A stretch of 48,592 nucleotides of DNA from an uncultured Candidatus Saccharibacteria bacterium (lineage in GTDB: Bacteria > Patescibacteriota > Saccharimonadia > Saccharimonadales > Saccharimonadaceae). The translations under genes were made by a program, and so were the position numbers. Location: assembly GCA_947304395.1 (NCBI GenBank), contig CAMZBA010000002.1:1-48592 (forward strand). Reading direction: 5' to 3'. Of the stretch, positions 20,972 to 33,434 are shown piece after piece; position 1 is the first letter of the stretch, and the number at the start of each line of letters is the position of its first letter. The notes below the pieces were generated by a model. That model saw nothing but the letters and a program-made list of their open reading frames with translations, was not told the DNA's origin and did no database searches.

Positions 20972-21373
20972 ATGTCTATTCAAACAACCGATCCTGTAGC
21001 TGACTTGCTTACCCGTATCCGTAACGCAATCGCAGTCGGCAAGACCGAAATTCGTGTCCCTACCAGCAAACTCAAATTTGCTGTTGCCGACAAGCTGCAG
21101 AAGATTAATTATCTAGAAAAAGTCGAAATCGAAGAAGCTCAACCGCGCGGCATCCTTCATATCGTTATCAATAACGAAGGTGAAAATGCTCGCATCAATG
21201 AGATTTCCAAGGTTTCAACTCCAGGTCGCCGTATCTATACTGGCGTGAACGAGATTCCGAAAGTCAAATCTGGTCGCGGTACCGTATTGATTTCAACCAG
21301 CAAGGGTATTATGACTGGCCAAGAAGCCGTCAAGAATAAACTTGGTGGAGAAATACTTGTCCGAGTTTGGTAA
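20972..21373 (+). CDS. rpsH: 30S ribosomal protein S8
   Basis: The 133 aa run from DPVADLLTRIRNAIAVGK to the closing STSKGIMTGQEAVKNKLGGEILVRVW. S8 is a primary 16S binder and, in E. coli, the spc-operon regulator. AAAGGAG precedes the ATG. In almost all bacteria rplF follows directly; here a terminator ends the transcript and rplF is 9.5 kb away. Confidence 0.97.
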   Translation: MSIQTTDPVADLLTRIRNAIAVGKTEIRVPTSKLKFAVADKLQKINYLEKVEIEEAQPRGILHIVINNEGENARINEISKVSTPGRRIYTGVNEIPKVKSGRGTVLISTSKGIMTGQEAVKNKLGGEILVRVW

Positions 21374-21462: not shown

Positions 21463-21471
21463 TGGTAAAAT
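21463..21471 (+). promoter_or_regulatory. extended -10 promoter of the T7SS substrate operon
   Basis: TGG-TAAAAT with no good -35. It is the only promoter-like signal between the rpsH terminator and the first Esx-like gene. Confidence 0.5.
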
Positions 21472-21480
21472 CATGTTAAG

Positions 21481-21535
21481 AAAGGAGGTCAAAAAAAACA
21501 AGATGCTATCATTTTGCGATAGCTTGAAGGTATAA
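21481..21535 (+). promoter_or_regulatory. leader with detached SD and hairpin
   Basis: A strong AAAGGAGG (21481-21488) is 60 nt upstream of the first Esx-like start, too far to serve it. Between them GCTATC (21505-21510) and GATAGC (21518-21523) form a perfect hairpin, and an ATG at 21503 opens a 10-codon frame ending TAA at 21533-21535. This could be a leader peptide or a control stem. Confidence 0.4.
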
Positions 21536-21547
21536 AAACATTACGTC

Positions 21548-21892
21548 ATGAACAACGTTATAGCTGGTATAAAAGATAGCGAGCTTAATGATCTTAGCCT
21601 CGAAGTGATAAAGTACCGTGATAGAATTTCCGATTTATTCGAGAAAGTTGATGCTTGCATGGAGAGACTGCAGTCGTGCTACGTAGGCGAGCCAAGCGGA
21701 AGAATCGCCAACTATGCCGAAAACTTGCATGCTTCTTTTTCAACGGCTAAAGATAATATTAAGTCATACGCGGACGATTTCGCTACTTTGATTAGTAAAA
21801 TGCACGAGAATGACCAATATTTATCAAGTTTATTCCTAGAATCCACGGAAGAACAACAAACTAAAATTGATAATAACGATTTTTCAGTATAA
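21548..21892 (+). CDS. WXG100/Esx-like helical protein (first T7SS small gene)
   Basis: The 114 aa are all helix except a central turn CYVGEPSGRI (about residues 44-53), which occupies the place of the W-x-G turn in Esx proteins (aromatic-V-G). The length and helix-turn-helix layout suit the WXG100 superfamily, whose members are exported as dimers by type VII secretion. The strict W is missing, so the assignment leans on context: it heads a run of seven small genes ahead of EssC. No signal peptide. Confidence 0.6.
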   Translation: MNNVIAGIKDSELNDLSLEVIKYRDRISDLFEKVDACMERLQSCYVGEPSGRIANYAENLHASFSTAKDNIKSYADDFATLISKMHENDQYLSSLFLESTEEQQTKIDNNDFSV

Positions 21893-21913
21893 AAAATAGG
21901 AGAATTTATTAAT

Positions 21914-22225
21914 ATGGCACTAAATATAGACGGCGCAACGACCGGGTACGATTCGGCTGGGATCGCATCTCTACTACAGATTATTCATGCTGATGTGATT
22001 CAGGCAGCGTCCGATAAACTAACGGCCGACAAAGCTACCTTGGATACAGCTCTTGACAGTATCTGGCAAGGTAAATCCGAACTTATATTCAAGAGCAATC
22101 TCGAAGCGGATGTTAAGAAAGTTTGCAAAGGTCTAGAGGATGCATATAAAGTCCTAGAGTCGGAAGTGACCCAGACTGGTCAGCAAATGGGAAAAGTAGA
22201 CGAAAATTTAGTGGACAAGAAATAG
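21914..22225 (+). CDS. WXG100-family protein
   Basis: The 103 aa have the Esx size and a clear turn: SIWQGKSELIFKSNLEADV (WQG at about residues 50-52), flanked by two amphipathic helices. Proteins of this kind (EsxA/EsxB, YukE) are substrates and structural partners of the EssC ATPase. The SD AGGAG lies about 10 nt upstream of the ATG. It is second in the small-gene run. Confidence 0.75.
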   Translation: MALNIDGATTGYDSAGIASLLQIIHADVIQAASDKLTADKATLDTALDSIWQGKSELIFKSNLEADVKKVCKGLEDAYKVLESEVTQTGQQMGKVDENLVDKK

Positions 22226-22242
22226 GAAAGGATAAATAAATT

Positions 22243-22719
22243 ATGAGCATTAATGATGCTACTGGCGCAATCCAACACAATGTACCAGATGCCTTCGATA
22301 ATATACAAACCGCAAGCGCCGCCGTGCAATCTCAAGTTGGCGATCCAGCAGGCAATTTCTTCACGGGAACTGCTTCATATGGAGCAGACTTTGCGGGTAT
22401 AAATTCTAATAATCTTGATGCATTTAATAACGCCGTCGATGCATATAGAGATGCTGCAATCCAAATTCTCGACGGCTTCGACACGCAGAAGTCAAATATC
22501 GAAAAAGCGTTCAAAGGATCGACTGCGGATGCGCTACAAACGTTCTTCACATCAATTAAGGATCTATGTAACGCATATGTCACCGCAATAAATACGGAGA
22601 AAGCATACCTGCTAGAAGTTAATCGGAACTGGATAAACACCACTGCGCAGATATCCCAAGATATTAATGCTGACGCTAGCGCAGTCGGTGCCCAAAAAGA
22701 TACAATTAATCTGCAGTAA
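22243..22719 (+). CDS. long Esx-like protein
   Basis: The 158-aa helical protein has an N-terminal low-complexity Ala/Asn-rich part and a central turn AFKGSTADALQTFFTSIKDLC (about residues 88-108), with F-K-G in the W-x-G position followed by the usual small-residue helix start. It resembles the longer WXG100 relatives and the N-terminal halves of LXG proteins, but has no toxin domain. SD AGGAAAGG. Confidence 0.62.
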   Translation: MSINDATGAIQHNVPDAFDNIQTASAAVQSQVGDPAGNFFTGTASYGADFAGINSNNLDAFNNAVDAYRDAAIQILDGFDTQKSNIEKAFKGSTADALQTFFTSIKDLCNAYVTAINTEKAYLLEVNRNWINTTAQISQDINADASAVGAQKDTINLQ

Positions 22720-22733
22720 GGGGAACTTAAAAT

Positions 22734-23033
22734 ATGGCTTCAATTGGAGAATATCGAAACGATATAAAAAGATATCGCGCACTAAAAGAAAAAGTGGCGT
22801 ATATTATTAGCGAGTTAAATTCGGGTTCCGAAAATGCAAATAAGCTTAGCAATGAAGTTGCGGGTAGTTTTAAAGTTAACAACATTCCAGCTAAGCTTAC
22901 CGGTCGTATCGATATTCTCAATCGGAGCATGGCAGAAACTGCAAACTACTTAAAGGACACTATACTACCAAGTTTAGACAGGGCTATAGATAATGCGTAT
23001 GATGAAATTGAAAGGCTTGAGGAGGAAGACTGA
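22734..23033 (+). CDS. small helical T7SS-associated protein, DUF5082/YwqH-like
   Basis: The 99-aa protein is two long helices (YRNDIKRYRALKEKVAYIISELN and ILNRSMAETANYLKDTILPSLDRA), joined by a segment with KVNNIPAKLTGRI and without W-x-G. The plan recalls the DUF5082 proteins that precede DUF5344 and LXG genes in Bacillus T7SS loci. That link is inferred from size and order only. AAGGGGA lies upstream, and the stop is at the next gene's SD. Confidence 0.6.
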   Translation: MASIGEYRNDIKRYRALKEKVAYIISELNSGSENANKLSNEVAGSFKVNNIPAKLTGRIDILNRSMAETANYLKDTILPSLDRAIDNAYDEIERLEEED

Positions 23034-23034
23034 A

Positions 23035-23328
23035 ATGAAAGCAATTTCATATGCGGACACAACAGAAATTGAAAGCATATCAGACAAGCTCCTTGTTCTA
23101 GCAAATGATATTAATTTGGAATTTAACTCTCTGTTTGAACGTCTTGCAGAAGTACCAAGGGGAACACAAGAATGGATTGGTGGGCAAGCCGACATATACT
23201 TCCGCATTACAGCAACCGAAAGATCTCAATATGTCAATTTAACAAATGCTATAAGAGATATCAGCAAAGAACTAAAGATTGAATCGATAGGACTAGATAA
23301 CGCTATAGATAGAAACAATAAGGATTAA
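23035..23328 (+). CDS. WXG100-like protein, DUF5344/YwqI-like
   Basis: The 97 aa start at the ATG one base past the previous stop, with GAGGAAG upstream. The turn EWIGGQADIYFR (about residues 46-57) is a clear W-x-G followed by the usual A-x-x-F/Y helix. It is a small helical hairpin. Pairing with the upstream DUF5082-like gene would match the Bacillus order. Confidence 0.65.
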   Translation: MKAISYADTTEIESISDKLLVLANDINLEFNSLFERLAEVPRGTQEWIGGQADIYFRITATERSQYVNLTNAIRDISKELKIESIGLDNAIDRNNKD

Positions 23329-23333
23329 AAAAA

Positions 23334-23642
23334 ATGAGCAAAATAAACTATCCTGAAAAAGGTCTTATAATCACCACCAAATCGCTGGTTGAAGAATGTT
23401 CCAATTCTATCTCAAATGCAAGATCTCGTGCTGATTTGGATGTTCCGCATCGCTACTCAAGAAGAGATTATTTGAAAGATTTAGATAATAAAATTGATGG
23501 TTTTAAAAAACAGCTAGTTGATATTCAGCGCGAAATAGAACAAGCAGACCGAGATTTTGGCGAGGTGTGCGAAAATGCTGTAAAAAGAATCGCAAAGATG
23601 AATACGCCTAATATAATAAAACGCATTAGGCGAGTAGTATAG
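23334..23642 (+). CDS. small basic helical protein in T7SS operon
   Basis: The 102-aa protein is not recognised. It has a central YSRRDYLKDLDNKIDGFKKQLVDIQREIEQ coiled-coil-prone helix and a strongly basic end (IIKRIRRVV). No W-x-G turn and no signal peptide. It starts 5 nt after the previous stop and is clearly in the same operon. Confidence 0.6.
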   Translation: MSKINYPEKGLIITTKSLVEECSNSISNARSRADLDVPHRYSRRDYLKDLDNKIDGFKKQLVDIQREIEQADRDFGEVCENAVKRIAKMNTPNIIKRIRRVV

Positions 23643-23649
23643 AGGTTAA

Positions 23650-24021
23650 ATGGATAATACTGAAATATACCTGCGACACGATAATGGCAGAAGCGATAAG
23701 GCGGAACAAGAAGAGCTGTCTACCGCTAGCAAGAATTCAGAAAACGATGACGAACCTACTGCGAATAATGCCGAAACGACGCAAAGCGAGAGTACCAGAC
23801 TAATAGAAGCTGCCGATGAAACATTTAGGGTCAACCACGAAGAACTTGAGTCGGAAGAAATCGATATAGCGCCGACAGAAGTCGCAGAAGAAAAGCCGCT
23901 AGAAATGATTGGAGGCGGCGCAAGCTATCCACTTCCGACGCCAGAAATTGGAGATATGCCCCCTCCAGCACCACCAAAACACAATAATGACGACGAAAAC
24001 ATAGAAAAATCCCCAGCCTGA
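23650..24021 (+). CDS. acidic, disordered, proline-tailed protein in T7SS operon
   Basis: The 123-aa protein is low complexity, rich in E, D, N, S and T. Its proline-rich end (SYPLPTPEIGDMPPPAPPK) suggests a disordered tail or a binding peptide. No fold is evident. It is the last gene of the run; its stop is part of a hairpin. It might be a substrate, a chaperone-like adaptor or a wall-spanning spacer, but nothing in the sequence decides this. Confidence 0.55.
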   Translation: MDNTEIYLRHDNGRSDKAEQEELSTASKNSENDDEPTANNAETTQSESTRLIEAADETFRVNHEELESEEIDIAPTEVAEEKPLEMIGGGASYPLPTPEIGDMPPPAPPKHNNDDENIEKSPA

Positions 24022-24032
24022 CGGCTGGGGAT
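24009..24032. terminator. hairpin terminator between convergent genes
   Basis: The perfect 10-bp stem ATCCCCAGCC/GGCTGGGGAT has a TGAC loop. On the minus strand TTTTT follows at once (24004-24008 on plus), so it is a good terminator for the minus-strand gene. On plus the T run starts 8 nt later. Confidence 0.75.
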
Positions 24033-24072
24033 GAGTGGTTTTTTAGGGAAAAATACCTGCCTGCCACCTCAA

Positions 24073-24735
24073 TTACTGGGCGTATACCGTGTATGTGCCA
24101 TACTGACACTCATACGTGCCAATCTCTTCGGCAGACGACATAGCGGCTTTGGCCAGTGCCCAAGTGTTTGTTCTGCTCGGCAGAACATAAACTTTAGCAC
24201 CGCTCCAGGACAGTTCGAAGTCCGCGGCAGACTTTCCTTCGCAGTAGAATGTGGGTCCTTCGGACGTGGGAATGGCTGATCCTTTGAGGGCAGCTTCAAG
24301 CCCGCGACACCAGCTGGAGTCGTCGCCAATATTCTGGCTTACCCACTTGGCGTCTTCGGATTCGAATGCGTACCCGATGCCATTCGTTTCCATGAAGACG
24401 ACATAGCCCTTCAGGGCGTAATCTTCATCGGACATCACGGCAGAAGTTTCAGTTGAGCCTTCATTCTGACCATCATCAACGACGGAATCGGGAGTCTCTG
24501 TGCGATCATCGACAGCTTCAGGGGCAGTAGCTTCTGTGTGATCCGTCTCCGTGTCAGCAGGCTGCTCGACGTCCTCGGGAGTAGGAGCCTCAACTTCTGT
24601 CTCGGTCACCTGCGTCGCTGTGGGTTCAGTCTGAGTCTGGCCACGACGACCGCCGGTAGTTACTCCGACATACATGATGACGGCGCCGATGATGACGCAA
24701 ACGATGGCGATGGCAAAATTTTTTACTCTTTCCAT
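24073..24735 (-). CDS. membrane-anchored protein with acidic linker
   Basis: The 220-aa protein starts at the ATG reading MERVKNFAIAI behind AAGGAGG; longer upstream starts lack an SD. The membrane anchor is at about residues 5-25. An extracytoplasmic T/E/P-rich linker (about 30-105) and a C-terminal domain follow. The domain has GYVVFMETNGIGYAFES, W-C-G-L-E-A, FYCEGKSAADFELSW and a closing GTYECQYGTYTVYAQ. Three cysteines in the domain could form disulphides. The stalk-plus-domain plan suits a surface protein. It is transcribed against the T7SS genes from its own promoter, and a link to secretion is only positional. Confidence 0.72.
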   Translation of the reverse strand: MERVKNFAIAIVCVIIGAVIMYVGVTTGGRRGQTQTEPTATQVTETEVEAPTPEDVEQPADTETDHTEATAPEAVDDRTETPDSVVDDGQNEGSTETSAVMSDEDYALKGYVVFMETNGIGYAFESEDAKWVSQNIGDDSSWCRGLEAALKGSAIPTSEGPTFYCEGKSAADFELSWSGAKVYVLPSRTNTWALAKAAMSSAEEIGTYECQYGTYTVYAQ

Positions 24736-24786
24736 AAATAAAACCTCCTTAAAGAACTTATGTGTTTTTGCAACAAATATACTAAG

Positions 24787-24815
24787 ATTATAGCACGTGT
24801 ACATGGAATTGTCAA
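24787..24815 (-). promoter_or_regulatory. promoter of the 24735-24073 gene
   Basis: On the minus strand TTGACA (24810-24815), a 17-nt spacer and TATAAT (24787-24792) preceded by TGC. Confidence 0.88.
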
Positions 24816-24843
24816 GCATAATATGAAGTATAATAATAGCTCA

Positions 24844-24872
24844 TTGCTACAATAACTAAAAAATAATATAAT
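24844..24872 (+). promoter_or_regulatory. promoter of the essC-esaB operon
   Basis: TTGCTA (24844-24849), a 17-nt spacer and TATAAT (24867-24872). It lies back to back with the divergent promoter at 24787-24815. The leader is about 60 nt. Confidence 0.7.
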
Positions 24873-24903
24873 AATCTTAATACTTATGTTTAAAGGTGGG
24901 TCA

Positions 24904-24960
24904 ATGTACAATAACGTCTGCCCATTTCCAATAAAAGATGATCATACATATATTCAATAA
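24904..24960 (+). CDS. possible 18-codon upstream ORF overlapping the EssC start
   Basis: ATG at 24904 follows AAAGGTGGG at a good distance and encodes MYNNVCPFPIKDDHTYIQ. The frame spans the EssC ATG (24938) in a different frame. The EssC start itself has no clear SD. A short leader peptide that feeds ribosomes to EssC by coupling is possible; coding cannot be proven from one sequence. Confidence 0.3.
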   Translation: MYNNVCPFPIKDDHTYIQ

Positions 24961-27900
24961 CAGAGTAAACTATACGCGTAAAATATCGTCTACTGCAAGT
25001 GGTATGTATCCTCTTAATGTTGGCAACAAAATCTTAGGCAACATCATTTCAAACTATGACAGTTGGACCATTCAGCTCACTGATGAGTTTCATAGCCCCG
25101 AAGCAATTGGAGATTCCTTTAACCTCAAGCTATATCAAACTCACACCATAGTGTCAAAAAGAACTCGCGAAACATATTATGTAGTAGGCACTGAAAGCTA
25201 TTACAAAGAACGAACAGTTCTTAAAGCACCAAGAGATTTCCTAGTCGGAAGCAGTGAAGTATGCGACATATACTATCGTCAAGAGTATAGCAACAAGGAA
25301 ACATTAAAGCTTAGCCTAACCATGTATGGCTGGGTTGCAGAAACTAGCTCGTCAAACTTCTTTGCCTCTAGAGAACGAATAGTCGGCAAGAAGAAATTGT
25401 CCTGCGGTGATTATATTTTTTATTTTGGGCTAAAAATAATCTTACTTAATAACGCTATTATTATTAATAGCCCTACTGATAAAATTAAGATAGGCCCCAA
25501 GTTATCTCCAACAAAAATTGACTACGCTAGTGCCGGAGAGACTAAAGATGCCGGCAGAAAAGATCAAGATATCGATCAAGACTTGCCATTCTTCTCAGAA
25601 GACGATTATTACTACAAATCGCCAAGGTTCAACTACCTAATTGACACAACCGAGGTTACGATCGACGAACCGCCGGCACCGAATAAAAATGATAACATGC
25701 CTGCAATTTTAGCCATAGGTCCACAACTCACAATGGGCATAGCCTCCGGCTTATCTGTAGTATCAATGATAATGATGCTGGGGCAGGGTTCAATTAATCC
25801 AATTCGAATTAGGCTATCGATTGCTACTATGTGTGTTTCGATGATTGGCACGGTAGCGTGGCCGACCATATCGCGTGCTATTAATAAGAAGCGCTTAAAG
25901 AAACGAGAAGAAAAAAGGCAAAATAAATACCGCGAGTATCTATCCAAGAAACAAGAGCAAATTAAACAAATCAAAGAGGTACAATACAAAACCCTTCTTG
26001 ACAATAACCCGCCCATAGATCAATGCGCTCGAATAATCGATACAAAAAACAGCAGATTGTGGCAGCGCAATATTGAGCACAAGGATTTTCTATGCGTTCG
26101 CGTTGGGACGGGCAACGTGGAAACGAAGATTGACATAGAAAAACCAGAGGATCATTTTAGTATCGATGATGAGGATCAGCTATTCGTAGAGCTCAAAAAA
26201 GTCGTGAATGATTCGCTACTTATCAAAGACGCGCCGTTAACCTATAATTTTACGAATCAAATAATCGATGCCATAATGGGGTCTTCAAGTTTAGTGAAGC
26301 CATTTATGGACAGCGTATTTCTTCAAATGCTTACATTCTACTCGTATACTGACTTAAAAATAGTAGTGTTTACTACCGAGCCGGAAAAATGGGATTATTT
26401 AAAAAACGCACCCCATTGCTGGAATAATGAGCGCACAACTCGCTACTTCGCGACATCTATCGAAAAGCTGACGACCATCTCGAGCGACTTAGAGAAGGTA
26501 TTTAATGCTCGCAAGTCGAATGATGAAGAAGAAAAGCTAGAAGATAATGGCGAAAAACGCGCAGAGAGTGGGGTGAATTTTAGGGATTTTCGCCCATACT
26601 ATCTTCTCTTTATCGACGACATGTCGGCAGTAAGGAATGTGCCGCTAATCAATAAAATACTTCATTACAAAAGAAATCTAGGTTTTTCCATTATTGCCTT
26701 AGCGCAAAGCGTATCGATGCTCCCAAGCGAGACCGCCGATTTTATTAGCATTACGAAAGATTATGCAGCCATCTTGACTACGGGCGAAAATGAAAAACAG
26801 ATTTATTTTAAAGCCGACATGAATAATGAAATAGTCGACATGAGAACCTGTACTAGAAAACTAGCAAACATACCCGTCAAGGCTGAAAAAGGAAAATTTG
26901 AATTGCCAAAATCGCTACCTTTTCTCGAAATGTACGAATGCGGACGCGTCGAGCAGCTCAACAGTCTAGCAAGATGGAAAAGCAACGATCCAACGTCTAG
27001 CCTATCCGTACCAATAGGAGTGGATCAAAACAATGAGTGTTTTAATATGGATACGCACGAGAAAGCGTATGGTCCGCACGGCCTGATAGCGGGAACGACA
27101 GGCTCTGGCAAATCTGAGTGGATCATAACCTTTATTCTATCGCTAGCCGTAAACTTTAGCCCAGAAGAAGTCCAATTTGTTTTGATAGACTACAAAGGTG
27201 GTGGTTTAGCAAAGAGCTTCGAGAATGCAGAATTAGGAATTAGACTTCCGCACTTAGCGGGCACAATCACGAACCTAGATAAATCCGAAATTTTTCGCTC
27301 CATCTCAGCTATCGAATCTGAGCTCAGACGACGACAGTCCATGTTTAATAACGCTCGGGAAAAGCTCAAAGAAGCGTCAATGGATATTTACAAGTACCAA
27401 CAGTGCTATAGAAAAGGACAGGTCAGTGAGCCTATGTCTCATTTGTTTATCATTTGCGACGAGTTTGCTGAGCTAAAATCCCAACAGCCAGATTTCATGG
27501 ATCAGCTCATCTCGACATCACGCATTGGCCGCTCGCTAGGGGTTCACTTAATTTTAGCAACACAGAAACCTAGCGGCGTCGTAAACGAGCAAATCTGGTC
27601 CAACTCTAAATTTAAAATTGCGCTAAAAGTACAGAATAGAAGTGATTCAAATGAAGTGATTAAGAAACCAGACGCAGCATACCTAAAACAGGTCGGATCG
27701 TTCTACCTTCAGGTAGGAAATGATGAATATTATAACCTAGGACAAGTCGCCTGGGCTGGCGCGAAATATTACCCATCTAACTCTATAAAGAAAGAGATTG
27801 ACGGTGCTGTTTTGCTAATCGACGATATTGGAAATGTCACTAATACTATCGAAGACAAAGTAAAAACGGAAAGCCAAGGCGAGCAGCTATTGAATGTGGT

Positions 27901-29515
27901 CGGATACCTATCGGATATCAGTAAAAAAGTCCAACTCCATACCAGACAAATGTGGCTGGAAAACATAAAATCAAAAGTACTACTTTCGGACCTTCGCGAA
28001 AAGTATCGCGCTCAACCAAGCGCAAAATATACCTATAATACCGTAATCGGCGAATATGACGAGCCGCGCCTTCAGAAACAGGATATACTACGAATAGATT
28101 TGGCGGGCGGAAATATTGCAATAGTCAGCAAACCAGACGGGAGCATAGAAAAACTAATTTCAACTATCGTTTGGTCTAGCATTTGCGACCATACGCCTGC
28201 AGAGATAGCCTACTATATACTAGACTTCGGATCTGAGACACTTCGAAAATTTGCCAAATTCCCACAAGTGGGCGAAGTCATCTTTCAAAATGAGCCAGAC
28301 AGAATTGCTAGTATGATCAATATGATTAACGACGAAATGGCGCAACGCAAACAAATATTATCCGATTACAATGGGTCATTCGAATACTACAATCGCGTGG
28401 CAAAAGAAAAAATGAATTTAATGGTAATTATTATAAATAATTACGACATATTTTCAGAGACTTATCCAAAAGTAGTTGGAATGGTCGAAGACCTATTCCG
28501 CGACGCGCCGAAGTATGGAATCGTATTTATAATCAGCGCAAACGCAACTAATACCATTGGCTCAAGATTGTTGCAGCATTTCAATCATTACATTTTGATG
28601 CAAATCACGGACGATTCGATGTATAGAGTATTATCGAACTGCCGCCGAGGCTTAATACCTAAAAAAATAGTAGGAAGGGGCATATGTAAGGTTAATGCTG
28701 AATCAGCAGATTCATATTGCGAGTTCCAGACTGCTATGATTGACGATGAAGAAAACGAACTGCAGACCATCAAAACTTATGCCGAACAGTGTATTGAATA
28801 CTATAAATGCAAAGTTAAACAGCTCGCTAAAATACCAGACGATATTACGAGTAACGATCTTATTAGCCACGTATCCGACCTATCCAGTGTTCCAGTGGGT
28901 ATAAATCTATATGAAAAGAACCTTGCAATTTATGACTTCCTGGCACAAAAAGTTCACCTCGTCACTAGTAAAGATATAAAGACGAATATGGAGTTTGTGT
29001 ATGCTCTTGCCGCACTAATGACGAAAGTGTCCAACGCAAAAGTACGCGTACTAGACTTATTGAAAATATTCCACAAACCTATCTTAGATATACAGAAACT
29101 CGATCAAGATCCAAACGCCGTATTTGAAGCGCTCGAAAAGGACGTATTAACAAGAACGGAGTCACAAGATTACGGTATTAATATAATAATCGGAGCCGGT
29201 AACTATAAGAGTGTTCTTTCTGAAGAAGGCGTAAAGACGTTCCAAAATCTCTTCGAAAATCTCTCGAAGAGTAAGAGAGTTATATTCGTATTAGTTGACA
29301 ACTACGAAAGCATAAGAAATCTCACGGTCGAAAAATGGTATAGAGAGATGGATCTAAAGCAAGGCATTTGGCTTGGACGCGGGCTTGACAGCCAAAGCTT
29401 ATACGATGTCGAAGTACGCTCCGAAGATAACAAATATCATTACCCAGGCCTAGGCTATATTATTTCTGGCAATAATTACGACATAATAAAGACAATGATG
29501 GATAAGGACGAATAA
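24938..29515 (+). CDS. essC: EssC-type FtsK/SpoIIIE ATPase of type VII secretion
   Basis: The 1525 aa match Firmicutes EssC/YukBA (about 1480). The N-terminal 240 residues are beta-rich, in the place of the two FHA-like domains of EssC. A pair of membrane helices lies at about 256-277 and 288-308, preceded by SPRFNYLI...VTIDEPPAP as in EssC. ATPase domain 1 (about 650-900) is intact: Walker A GTTGSGKSE (719-727), LLIDYKGGG-like VLIDYKGGGLAK, Walker B LFIICDE (836-842), ATQKPSGVV and IALKVQNRSDSNEV. Domains 2 and 3 keep the fold pattern (VVIIINNYD-like strand), but their P-loops are degenerate (SKPDGSIEK and VTSKDIKTN). The protein would drive export of the Esx-like proteins encoded upstream. 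The stop overlaps the next start. Confidence 0.93.
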   Translation: MIIHIFNNRVNYTRKISSTASGMYPLNVGNKILGNIISNYDSWTIQLTDEFHSPEAIGDSFNLKLYQTHTIVSKRTRETYYVVGTESYYKERTVLKAPRDFLVGSSEVCDIYYRQEYSNKETLKLSLTMYGWVAETSSSNFFASRERIVGKKKLSCGDYIFYFGLKIILLNNAIIINSPTDKIKIGPKLSPTKIDYASAGETKDAGRKDQDIDQDLPFFSEDDYYYKSPRFNYLIDTTEVTIDEPPAPNKNDNMPAILAIGPQLTMGIASGLSVVSMIMMLGQGSINPIRIRLSIATMCVSMIGTVAWPTISRAINKKRLKKREEKRQNKYREYLSKKQEQIKQIKEVQYKTLLDNNPPIDQCARIIDTKNSRLWQRNIEHKDFLCVRVGTGNVETKIDIEKPEDHFSIDDEDQLFVELKKVVNDSLLIKDAPLTYNFTNQIIDAIMGSSSLVKPFMDSVFLQMLTFYSYTDLKIVVFTTEPEKWDYLKNAPHCWNNERTTRYFATSIEKLTTISSDLEKVFNARKSNDEEEKLEDNGEKRAESGVNFRDFRPYYLLFIDDMSAVRNVPLINKILHYKRNLGFSIIALAQSVSMLPSETADFISITKDYAAILTTGENEKQIYFKADMNNEIVDMRTCTRKLANIPVKAEKGKFELPKSLPFLEMYECGRVEQLNSLARWKSNDPTSSLSVPIGVDQNNECFNMDTHEKAYGPHGLIAGTTGSGKSEWIITFILSLAVNFSPEEVQFVLIDYKGGGLAKSFENAELGIRLPHLAGTITNLDKSEIFRSISAIESELRRRQSMFNNAREKLKEASMDIYKYQQCYRKGQVSEPMSHLFIICDEFAELKSQQPDFMDQLISTSRIGRSLGVHLILATQKPSGVVNEQIWSNSKFKIALKVQNRSDSNEVIKKPDAAYLKQVGSFYLQVGNDEYYNLGQVAWAGAKYYPSNSIKKEIDGAVLLIDDIGNVTNTIEDKVKTESQGEQLLNVVGYLSDISKKVQLHTRQMWLENIKSKVLLSDLREKYRAQPSAKYTYNTVIGEYDEPRLQKQDILRIDLAGGNIAIVSKPDGSIEKLISTIVWSSICDHTPAEIAYYILDFGSETLRKFAKFPQVGEVIFQNEPDRIASMINMINDEMAQRKQILSDYNGSFEYYNRVAKEKMNLMVIIINNYDIFSETYPKVVGMVEDLFRDAPKYGIVFIISANATNTIGSRLLQHFNHYILMQITDDSMYRVLSNCRRGLIPKKIVGRGICKVNAESADSYCEFQTAMIDDEENELQTIKTYAEQCIEYYKCKVKQLAKIPDDITSNDLISHVSDLSSVPVGINLYEKNLAIYDFLAQKVHLVTSKDIKTNMEFVYALAALMTKVSNAKVRVLDLLKIFHKPILDIQKLDQDPNAVFEALEKDVLTRTESQDYGINIIIGAGNYKSVLSEEGVKTFQNLFENLSKSKRVIFVLVDNYESIRNLTVEKWYREMDLKQGIWLGRGLDSQSLYDVEVRSEDNKYHYPGLGYIISGNNYDIIKTMMDKDE

Positions 29516-29769
29516 TGCAGTATAAAGTACTTGTGCAGTTTCATGCGCCGGAAATCGAGGAAGATTACGAAGCATATATCCCCATCAATAAGACCATTGG
29601 CGAAGTATCAGAACTGCTTCTTAGAGTAATTCGAGAGAAATATAGCACCTTTGCTGAAGGAGGCAAAGTGAAACTCTACGATAAGTATACATACCGAATC
29701 TATCGAGAAAACGACCTTATTCGCAATACGGACATCAAGAATGGTTCGGAACTAATCGTAATCTCATAA
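29515..29769 (+). CDS. EsaB/YukD-like ubiquitin-fold protein
   Basis: The 84-aa protein has a beta-grasp pattern: KVLVQFHAP strand, EDYEAYIPINKTIGEVSELLLRVI helix, RIYRENDLIRNTDIKNGSELIVI end. The final (N/D)GSxLIVI strand is typical of EsaB/YukD, the cytosolic ubiquitin-like component of T7SSb. It overlaps the EssC stop (TAATG), which indicates coupled translation. Together the pair identifies the locus as T7SSb-like. Confidence 0.85.
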   Translation: MQYKVLVQFHAPEIEEDYEAYIPINKTIGEVSELLLRVIREKYSTFAEGGKVKLYDKYTYRIYRENDLIRNTDIKNGSELIVIS

Positions 29770-29807
29770 CTTCCTTCAGTACGCCTAAAATAAATATTAA
29801 ATTAAAA

Positions 29808-29825
29808 AGCCCCCATTCGGGGGCT
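29808..29825. terminator. terminator hairpin between convergent genes
   Basis: The perfect 7-bp stem AGCCCCC/GGGGGCT has an ATTC loop. A T run follows on the minus side, so it terminates the 30617-29856 gene well; it probably also ends the essC operon. Confidence 0.75.
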
Positions 29826-29855: not shown

Positions 29856-30617
29856 TTAATCTACGCGTAAGATATTCCACACGGGCGACTTGTAGCTTCT
29901 GGCAATAAGCTCCAATGCGTAATCGTCCCGACAATTAGATCTTCCACAGCGGTAGGCACCTTCGAAAACGTCACGCAAATCTTCTTCAAGCTTGCCATAG
30001 TTATCAGGGATTCGGGAGAAAATATTTTTACTAAGAATAGCTTGCGAGTTATCGCTAAGCTTAGCAACGCAGTTTTTCAGCTGTTTTGACTCGATGATGT
30101 ACTTTATCTTCATGCATACAAAGCACATCGCGATAGCTGCCGGCGCAAGGCCGCCGCTGAAAAGATCGGACACCACCGCTGAAAACTTATTATAATCCTG
30201 GTAGCTTACCTTATCAGGACCATTCTGCAGTAAGGCATAAAATTTACGCACTTCATTATGCAGATCATATTCCATTTTCTCCCTTAATTTATCAAAATCT
30301 CCCTTCACGATATTAACAGCACTGACATGTGGCATATTCGCGAAAAGGAAATCATATCCGGGCACCTTCAAGTATTCGCTGATAACATAGTAGTCTTCAC
30401 AAGGCCAATACCCGTCAGCACGGACGGCTCCGTCTAAAACGGATGGAAGACTACCATAAATTAAGTCAGGAAGACCACACTGTGTCGCAAGATAGATGAT
30501 CGCAGCGGCGTTTGGCGACCATTCCGGCGGCCCCACAATGCTGCGTGTCCGAAGTTGCTCCAGAAGAGCATAGTCTATGGGAGACATGGACGGACCGGAG
30601 TATTCAAGCTTTGGCAT
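29856..30617 (-). CDS. orphan soluble protein
   Basis: The 253-aa protein is not recognised. The ATG is 8 nt after AGGAGG on the minus strand. No signal or membrane segment is obvious except a moderately hydrophobic stretch (LAPAAIAMCFVCMKIKYII). It is largely helical, with CGLPDLIYGSLP, DGYWPCEDYYVISEYLK and a C-terminal CGRSNCRDDYALELI cysteine pair. It is monocistronic and convergent with the essC operon. Confidence 0.72.
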   Translation of the reverse strand: MPKLEYSGPSMSPIDYALLEQLRTRSIVGPPEWSPNAAAIIYLATQCGLPDLIYGSLPSVLDGAVRADGYWPCEDYYVISEYLKVPGYDFLFANMPHVSAVNIVKGDFDKLREKMEYDLHNEVRKFYALLQNGPDKVSYQDYNKFSAVVSDLFSGGLAPAAIAMCFVCMKIKYIIESKQLKNCVAKLSDNSQAILSKNIFSRIPDNYGKLEEDLRDVFEGAYRCGRSNCRDDYALELIARSYKSPVWNILRVD

Positions 30618-30682
30618 AATAATCACCTCCTAGAAAAGCTGAACGTAAAGGAACAAAAAAGTAGAAATTCTTATAAGCCCAT

Positions 30683-30845: not shown

Positions 30846-31382
30846 ATGAGTCGTATCGGAAAACTACCTGTAGAGATTCCTGCAGGCGTGACAATTACGG
30901 TCGGCGACAAAGAAATTACCGTCGCTGGTCCAAAAGGCACGCTTCAGGTTCCTGTTCAGGAAAATACCACGACGAAAGTCGAGGGTAACCAAATCATCGT
31001 GACGCGTAGCGACGATGAGCCAAAGTCTCGTGCTTGGCACGGTTTGCAACGCGCACTACTTAATAACGCCGTTACTGGCGTCACCAAAGGTTTTGAGAAA
31101 AAACTCGAAATCAATGGCGTCGGTTTCCGCCTCAGTGGTGGACCAAAAGAAATCGAAATGGCACTTGGTTTTTCTCACCCAGTCAAATATTCAGCCCCAG
31201 AGGGTATTGAACTAAAGACGGACAAGATGACCATCACCGTATCTGGCATCGACAAGCAAAAAGTCGGCCAGGTCGCAGCCGAAATTCGCGCATTAAAGAA
31301 ACCAGAACCATACAAGGGTAAAGGTATCAAATATGCTGACGAAGTTATTATTCGTAAAGCCGGTAAGGCAGGGAAGAAATAA
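30846..31382 (+). CDS. rplF: 50S ribosomal protein L6
   Basis: The 178 aa begin MSRIGKLPVEIPAGV; AGAGGAA precedes this ATG, while a longer frame from 30786 lies in the promoter. GVTKGFEKKLEINGVGFR and the C-terminal KKPEPYKGKGIKYADE loop are diagnostic. L6 lies near the sarcin-ricin loop and factor-binding site. Confidence 0.97.
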   Translation: MSRIGKLPVEIPAGVTITVGDKEITVAGPKGTLQVPVQENTTTKVEGNQIIVTRSDDEPKSRAWHGLQRALLNNAVTGVTKGFEKKLEINGVGFRLSGGPKEIEMALGFSHPVKYSAPEGIELKTDKMTITVSGIDKQKVGQVAAEIRALKKPEPYKGKGIKYADEVIIRKAGKAGKK

Positions 31383-32948: not shown

Positions 32949-33434
32949 ATGGTTCTTTATACAACCCAAAGTCCAGAGGTATATCGTATTATCCAAGAGG
33001 ATGGCATTTGCTTCTGCGACATAAGGAAAAGCCAAGTTTTCGACCTCTTTGAAAGGTCATATAATTGGCTCGAAGGCAAAGTTGGCGAAAGAGTAAGACG
33101 TCCAGCCGCGGCAAAAGGCTTAATCTGGGCCTATCATACATTGCCCGAATGGTTCGACTACCACTACAGCGGCGAAATCGGAAAACAAAACGTATTTATG
33201 CGTCTCGAAGTTCCGGACGAACAGGTAACTTTTATCGAAGCTATGAAATGGCAGAACGTCATTGATTGCTTTAGTTTAGAAGAAGCCGAAGATTTTGCGG
33301 CCGAGGGTGAATATGACGTATTCGATACGTCCGATGCCGAAGTGCCTCCCGAAGTGGTGTTTTGGCAGATCGATCGCGAATATGTAAAAGAGGCAATCTT
33401 TTATATTTGCGAAGAACCACACTATGACGATTAA
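32949..33434 (+). CDS. DUF3841-like protein
   Basis: The 161 aa open VLYTTQSPEVYRIIQEDG and continue with FERSYNWLEGKVGERVRRP and LIWAYHTLPEW. This order (T-x-Q at the start, Y-x-W-L with a basic helix, then I-W-A) is that of DUF3841 proteins, small cytosolic proteins of unknown role common in Firmicutes. The C-terminal part is acidic and closes with VFWQIDREYVKEAIFY. GGGGAGGG precedes the ATG. It is a single-gene module wedged between rplO and secY. Confidence 0.7.
   Translation: MVLYTTQSPEVYRIIQEDGICFCDIRKSQVFDLFERSYNWLEGKVGERVRRPAAAKGLIWAYHTLPEWFDYHYSGEIGKQNVFMRLEVPDEQVTFIEAMKWQNVIDCFSLEEAEDFAAEGEYDVFDTSDAEVPPEVVFWQIDREYVKEAIFYICEEPHYDD

Follow-up and report, generated by a model that had tools for sequence, protein, structure and literature searches.

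A probable reduced type VII secretion cassette among the ribosomal protein genes of a Saccharibacteria genome

Introduction

In the type VII secretion system (T7SS) of Staphylococcus aureus and Bacillus subtilis, designated T7SSb, the genes are arranged in the order EsxA-EssA-EsaB-EssB-EssC-EsaA. Saccharibacteria are minute and live on other bacteria, and the contact machines described for them are type IV pili and the type IV secretion system. Here we analyse a 48,592-nucleotide stretch of DNA (the window; contig CAMZBA010000002.1) from an uncultured Candidatus Saccharibacteria bacterium, in which genes for an EssC-type ATPase, a YukD-like protein and several small helical proteins form a cassette between two ribosomal protein genes. 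The described types, T7SSa-j, are from Bacillota and Actinomycetota only (Garrett et al., 2024, PMC11217815); all of them have an ATPase, and WXG100 and YukD-like proteins are nearly always present (PMC11217815). T7SS was not detected in a survey of freshwater members of the candidate phyla radiation (CPR) (PMC9166423), and no report on T7SS in Saccharibacteria or CPR was found among open-access papers. A reduced T7SS variant in Saccharibacteria has apparently not been described so far.

The cassette

The genome (1.02 Mb, 96% complete) has relatives labelled Candidatus Saccharibacteria, and Saccharibacteria ribosomal genes flank the cassette on both sides, rpsH ending at 21373 and rplF starting at 30846. 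The interval between them contains six genes for small proteins (A–F), a gene for an acidic protein (G), a gene on the minus strand (H), essC and K. This cassette is likely to be a horizontally acquired, reduced T7SS, in which EssC and the YukD-like protein would export dimers of helical hairpins, C being the likeliest effector. An earlier note on this DNA had recognized a type VII-type locus in a Patescibacteria ribosomal operon, and EssC, WXG100 proteins and a YukD-like partner are indeed encoded between rpsH and rplF; its gene list missed H, between G and EssC. The features are as follows.

21548..21892, plus strand: protein A, WXG100 superfamily, YxG in place of WxG (PF06013 tally, EsxA profile match, first-pass matches to clostridial WXG genes beside EssC)
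21914..22225, plus strand: protein B, WXG100-type, W51-x-G53 (invariant WxG, PF06013 tally)
22243..22719, plus strand: protein C, WXG100/LXG-like, FKG turn, variable N-terminal extension (WXG100 and LXG tallies)
22734..23033, plus strand: protein D, predicted helical hairpin, possible Lap/YwqH-type partner (AlphaFold2, weak YwqH-like matches)
23035..23328, plus strand: protein E, WXG100-type, W47-x-G49 (invariant WxG, counterparts in Clostridia)
23334..23642, plus strand: protein F, predicted helical hairpin without known family (AlphaFold2)
23650..24021, plus strand: protein G, acidic, low-complexity, with a conserved C-terminal YPLPTPE...PP motif (Saccharibacteria loci only)
24009..24032, no strand assigned: bidirectional terminator-like hairpin between G and H (consensus match only)
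24073..24819, minus strand: protein H, divergent, membrane-anchored, one transmembrane helix, acidic linker, C-terminal domain (Saccharibacteria loci only)
24938..29515, plus strand: EssC-type ATPase, 1,525 amino acids (aa) (TIGR03928, YukB match)
29515..29769, plus strand: protein K, EsaB/YukD-like, overlapping the EssC stop codon (family-level PF08817)

The gene for H is preceded by a perfect sigma-70-like promoter, TTGACA-17-TATAAT (24815-24787), and promoter-like sites lie upstream of essC, in both cases as consensus matches only. Because of these promoters and the terminator-like hairpin between G and H, the cassette probably consists of three transcription units. The dN/dS ratios (NG86) of A–G and EssC against the related locus L046 are 0.06-0.34, and it is evident from the sequences that the genes of the cassette are kept together and are under purifying selection. 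Neither an Rfam family nor a tRNA was found in the whole window.

EssC and its YukD-like partner

EssC scores 905.5 bits against the NCBIfam model TIGR03928 (cut-off 778.4, E 6e-272), whereas no more than 117 bits are reached by the FtsK of the same genome (contig C4). Among solved chains, B. subtilis YukB is the nearest (9qks; phmmer E 3.5e-120), with EccC as another close PDB neighbour. A plain FtsK or a conjugation ATPase, which had been considered, is ruled out by the difference in the TIGR03928 scores together with the YukB match, and EssC is the FtsK-type membrane ATPase of the EccC/EssC kind that characterizes type VII secretion. Walker A is present only in the first ATPase domain, D1 (GTTGSGKS at residue 719), and is absent from D2 and D3; the proposal of a full-length EssC with an intact first Walker motif thus holds. 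The Bacilli of the sister group likewise have Walker A only in D1; in most Clostridia both D1 and D2 retain it. The N-terminus aligns with the canonical FHA domains of Clostridia, although the phosphothreonine motifs are lost; the Pfam FHA domain is matched by 22 of 34 relatives, and the N-terminus of the analysed EssC alone gives no match. A transmembrane segment is found at about residue 264.

Relatives of K, like those of A–F, were gathered with profiles built in this analysis. Among the fetched loci the K family counts 57 homologues, and these mostly adjoin essC. YukD (PF08817) is matched by 14 of 21 members, K from the analysed genome alone giving no match, and a YukD-like profile built from the Saccharibacteria and Bacilli sequences matched no PDB chain. 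At the level of the family, therefore, a YukD-type small protein appears to stand beside essC, and the coupled EsaB/YukD-like protein of the earlier note, which overlaps the EssC stop codon, is retained.

Small hairpin proteins and proteins G and H

The order A–F is identical in 12 loci, 8 of Saccharibacteria (two genera, three genomic sites) and 4 of gut Bacilli. WxG is invariant in B (W51-x-G53) and E (W47-x-G49) in all 12; the W-x-G turns noticed earlier in these proteins are real, while the positions attached to them, 21914 and 23035, are gene starts and not motif positions. The Pfam WXG100 family (PF06013) is matched by 9 of the 12 members of A, 10 of B and 7 of C. In addition, the profile of A matches EsxA in the PDB (3zbh, E 2.4e-4). 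A and E have counterparts in the WXG100 genes that follow EssC-YukD in Clostridia, where the E-like gene comes first and the A-like gene second; WXG100 is matched by 25 of 34 members of the combined set of A/E and clostridial proteins (best 3e-18). Judging from the Pfam tallies for A, B and C and from the invariant WxG of B and E, these four proteins are members of the WXG100 superfamily, and a WXG100/EsxA-type partner, as expected of type VII secretion, is thus encoded near EssC.

LXG is matched by 6 of the 12 members of C, below the cut-off (best E 1.9e-5), and the hhalign value for C against A is 85%. C (158 aa) has no separate C-terminal toxin domain and thus falls outside the definition of an LXG effector, which combines LXG with a toxin. 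We infer that C is the likeliest secreted effector or carrier. A repeat-rich C (GSKPKGSGS repeats) and a repeat-rich gene at the position of G were also noted (L048, 15623-16354; L097, 7772-8677).

D and F, both without WxG, are predicted by AlphaFold2 to be two-helix hairpins (D, pLDDT 90.9, helices 4-45 and 54-98; F, pLDDT 82.3, helices 11-32 and 44-88). A weak YwqH-like match is found in 2 of the 12 members of D, and F has no clear Pfam family. The earlier note had asked whether the small proteins fold as Esx-like hairpins; the hairpins are predicted for D and F, but fold searches with them led only to generic helical hairpins, with no significant fold or sequence match. The Z scores of 6.8-6.9 for F against ESAT-6/CFP-10 (3fav) and EsxA (2vrz), which lie amid unrelated entries, do not prove kinship, and neither does the match of D to TelA-LXG/LapA3/LapA4 (8gmh; Foldseek E 1.9, not significant). 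No useful link emerged when the profiles of D, F, B and E were compared with one another. Seven small helical genes had been counted; six are of hairpin type, and the seventh, G, is acidic, low-complexity and proline-rich.

G and H are found in Saccharibacteria loci only, each at profile significance in 7 of 8, and a relative of H was not found in L048. Translation of H probably starts at about 24735, and the domain C-terminal to its single transmembrane helix is probably outside the cell. On the grounds of topology and of presence only in Saccharibacteria loci, H might be guessed to be exported as an anchor, an immunity protein or a component of the surface, and G to serve as an adaptor in the cytosol.

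Distribution and origin

The locus is rare in Patescibacteria: of 380 genomes sampled across the phylum, the analysed one alone exceeds the EssC cut-off. A close EssC is present in 9 of 394 genomes of its family. The carriers are independent metagenome-assembled genomes from several projects, 96-99% complete, of rumen and gut Saccharibacteria. The more distant carriers share 58-80% identity in EssC, against 47-49% with four gut Bacilli (L050-L053). In a tree made by a quick method with SH-aLRT supports, EssC of Saccharibacteria forms one clade (100), which is sister to the four gut Bacilli (100) and nested in Bacillota. It groups next with Clostridia and stands apart from L135, the only B. subtilis-type row, whose branch is long. 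The phylogeny suggested earlier as a check places EssC with Bacilli and then Clostridia. Since the Saccharibacteria clade is sister to the gut Bacilli within Bacillota, the simplest reading is that the cassette was acquired horizontally from gut Bacilli or bacteria closely related to them. No EssC relative was found on viral contigs, and plasmids carry only Bacillota EssC of about 30% identity.

In the genus of the analysed genome, all insertion sites that could be read across are at rpsH-rplF. Two carriers of another genus have the cassette elsewhere, in one downstream of open reading frames (ORFs) around ftsZ and in the other with EssC facing A–F. In a tree of the neighbouring ribosomal genes carriers and non-carriers are interspersed, and in non-carriers of the genus the same junction holds other genes as inserts of 1.0-8.6 kb; rpsH-rplF (compared here with L126-L134) is therefore a variable cargo site within a ribosomal operon.

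Other genes were observed near this site. In the analysed genome, a 256-aa protein without Pfam family adjoins the cassette (29856-30626, minus strand); L034/L100, L042/L099 and L041/L054 have near-identical copies, and L126 has a relative of 32% identity. A DUF3841 protein is encoded between rplO and secY (32949-33434). Additional genes separate the cassette from rplF in L047 (10807-13614) and L049 (14931-17739); by eye, the first two read as thymidylate synthase-like and dihydrofolate reductase-like, and they are followed by a protein of 441 aa whose nucleotidyltransferase match is weak; ORFs similar to the first two occur in the non-carrier L127.

Comparison with known systems

The cassette shares with T7SSb the architecture of EssC, the EsaB/YukD protein and the EsxA-type proteins; it differs in the absence of detected EssB and EsaA, in gene order and in its six hairpins. 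In the nine carrier genomes, searched with B. subtilis as the positive control, no EssB exceeded the cut-off (one sub-threshold match, in G585, E 0.03) and EsaA gave no match at E 0.01; neither was detected in the four related Bacilli genomes. EssB/YukC and EsaA, by which T7SSb is recognized, thus appear to be missing. The earlier observation that EsaA and EssB are not at the locus therefore extends to whole genomes, but the name T7SSb-like is not supported, EssC also falling outside the one B. subtilis-type row, and neither is the supposed agreement with Firmicutes T7SSb in gene order, from which A–F, G, EssC, K differs.

The loci of gut Bacilli (L050-L053) are closest, with the related EssC, K and A–F in identical order. 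They differ in that EssC-K comes first, that G and H are absent, that in the loci read two minus-strand genes (470-aa, GNAT) lie between K and A, and that elsewhere in three of the genomes additional WXG-type genes stand next to genes for large proteins. The about 470-aa protein is conserved in L050-L053 and has no Pfam family (scanned in L051), and the GNAT acetyltransferase-like gene beside it occurs in L051-L053 (GNAT match tested in L051 only).

A WXG profile finds these additional genes in the Bacilli genomes, and nine places were read, judged by ORF length and position and not by domain search. WXG-type genes occur as pairs at G753:C13 (with nearby ORFs of about 255 and 591 aa), G753:C4 (442 aa) and G751:C3 (271-421 aa), and singly at G752:C1 (near ORFs of 282 and 715 aa) and G751:C4 (273 and 699 aa). 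No large partner accompanies the lone WXG-type ORF of 304 aa at G752:C12 or the match beside a 139-aa ORF at G753:C8; the match at G750:C16 has two internal stops and lies beside a 623-aa ORF, and that at G753:C12 was set aside as a histidine kinase. In three of the four genomes, extra WXG-type genes thus adjoin genes for 250-715 aa, an arrangement as for T7SS substrates. The pairs and single genes (three and two, respectively, among L152-L154, L158 and L159) are candidate T7SS substrate loci of gut Bacilli.

With the clostridial T7SSe, T7SSf and T7SSj (PMC11217815) and with clostridial loci such as L060, the cassette shares the N-terminal FHA region of EssC, the YukD-like protein and WXG100 genes, which there directly follow EssC-YukD. 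Unlike the cassette, L060 has canonical FHA motifs, Walker A in D1 and D2, and ORFs read by eye as a PPM phosphatase and a Ser/Thr kinase; its genome gives kinase matches. No Pkinase exceeded the Pfam cut-off in the six carriers searched, whereas the two clostridial genomes searched have several kinases each, in G757 on the EssC contig. The phosphothreonine-binding FHA domain and the kinase and/or phosphatase of T7SSe/f/j thus seem to be lacking, PPM phosphatase not having been searched genome-wide. A Pkinase match of 29 bits, below the cut-off, was noted within a 584-aa frame of the analysed genome (G000:C6:18066-18590).

Finally, small hairpin partners beside an LXG-like protein recall the LXG-Lap pre-secretion complexes (TelA-LapA3-LapA4, 8gmh; PMC9600955), although C has no separate C-terminal toxin domain and the Foldseek match of D to 8gmh does not reach significance.

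Competing explanations

Several observations weigh against a reduced T7SS. The small proteins taken singly score below Pfam gathering cut-offs, A, B and C doing so for WXG100, and a simple hydropathy scan shows few clear transmembrane segments in EssC. No membrane channel partner was found, EssB and EsaA being undetected and EssA, EccB/D/E and the parts of T7SSc-j not searched. In the nine carriers no LXG protein exceeds the cut-off, and there are no WXG-type genes beyond the cassette, the WXG profile (A9) finding A and E, plus C in one. The last two observations suit another explanation, in which the export is vestigial or self-contained and the hairpins are the sole cargo, serving the own envelope, nutrient uptake or adhesion instead of attack or host manipulation. 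No toxin domain was found at the locus or by the LXG search in carriers, and some T7SS serve nutrient uptake (PMC12607788). The surface protein H and the Saccharibacteria-only G suggest adaptation to contact, however, and C has LXG-like features; self-contained export is the less probable explanation, though one to be taken seriously. It is very doubtful that the cassette belongs to a complete T7SSb of the Staphylococcus/Bacillus type with EsaA, EssA and EssB encoded elsewhere in the genome: the cut-off of TIGR03928, a model named for Firmicutes T7SSb, is exceeded, but the controlled searches of carriers and Bacilli relatives and the place of EssC apart from the B. subtilis-type row speak against it.

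That the locus encodes an FtsK/HerA-type DNA translocase or conjugation apparatus without any tie to protein secretion is highly improbable. EssC does carry an FtsK_SpoIIIE domain and has a weak TraG-D_C match (E 6e-4), but the EssC/EccC match is full-length (905 against 117 bits for the genome's own FtsK), WXG100 and YukD partners are encoded beside it, and no relaxase is seen at the locus. Bacilli DNA binned by contamination or chimeric assembly with Saccharibacteria deserves still less credence, even though the GC content of the cassette (41%) is lower than that of the left ribosomal flank (48%). Saccharibacteria ribosomal genes lie on both sides, eight loci come from several projects with three insertion sites, and EssC is closer among the more distant carriers than to Bacilli; chance and contamination are excluded because the order A–F is the same in 12 loci of two phyla.

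Proposed mechanism and significance

If the cassette is a reduced T7SS, EssC and K would form the motor and the hairpins A–F would pair. One WXG pair, A/E, might prime EssC, as the clostridial pair beside EssC presumably does, and C, accompanied for instance by D or F, would pass through the EssC ring, driven by ATPase cycles of D1. Exported C might act outside, on or in a neighbouring bacterium, and H may be a surface part. We infer secretion and its targets from sequence, and delivery to the host bacterium is plausible as a hypothesis. A bolder proposal, to be entertained only tentatively, is that of a new T7SS subtype, made up only of EssC, its YukD-like partner and six hairpin proteins as a fixed set, which works with no known membrane partners, came from gut Bacilli and is used by an episymbiont on its bacterial hosts.

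The same cassette in gut Bacilli would widen the known subtypes and bring candidate substrate loci. The reduced system would also be a natural minimal one for asking what a T7SS needs beyond EssC, and, for protein delivery in the episymbiosis of Saccharibacteria, a T7SS from gut Bacilli would offer a specific candidate that can be tested.

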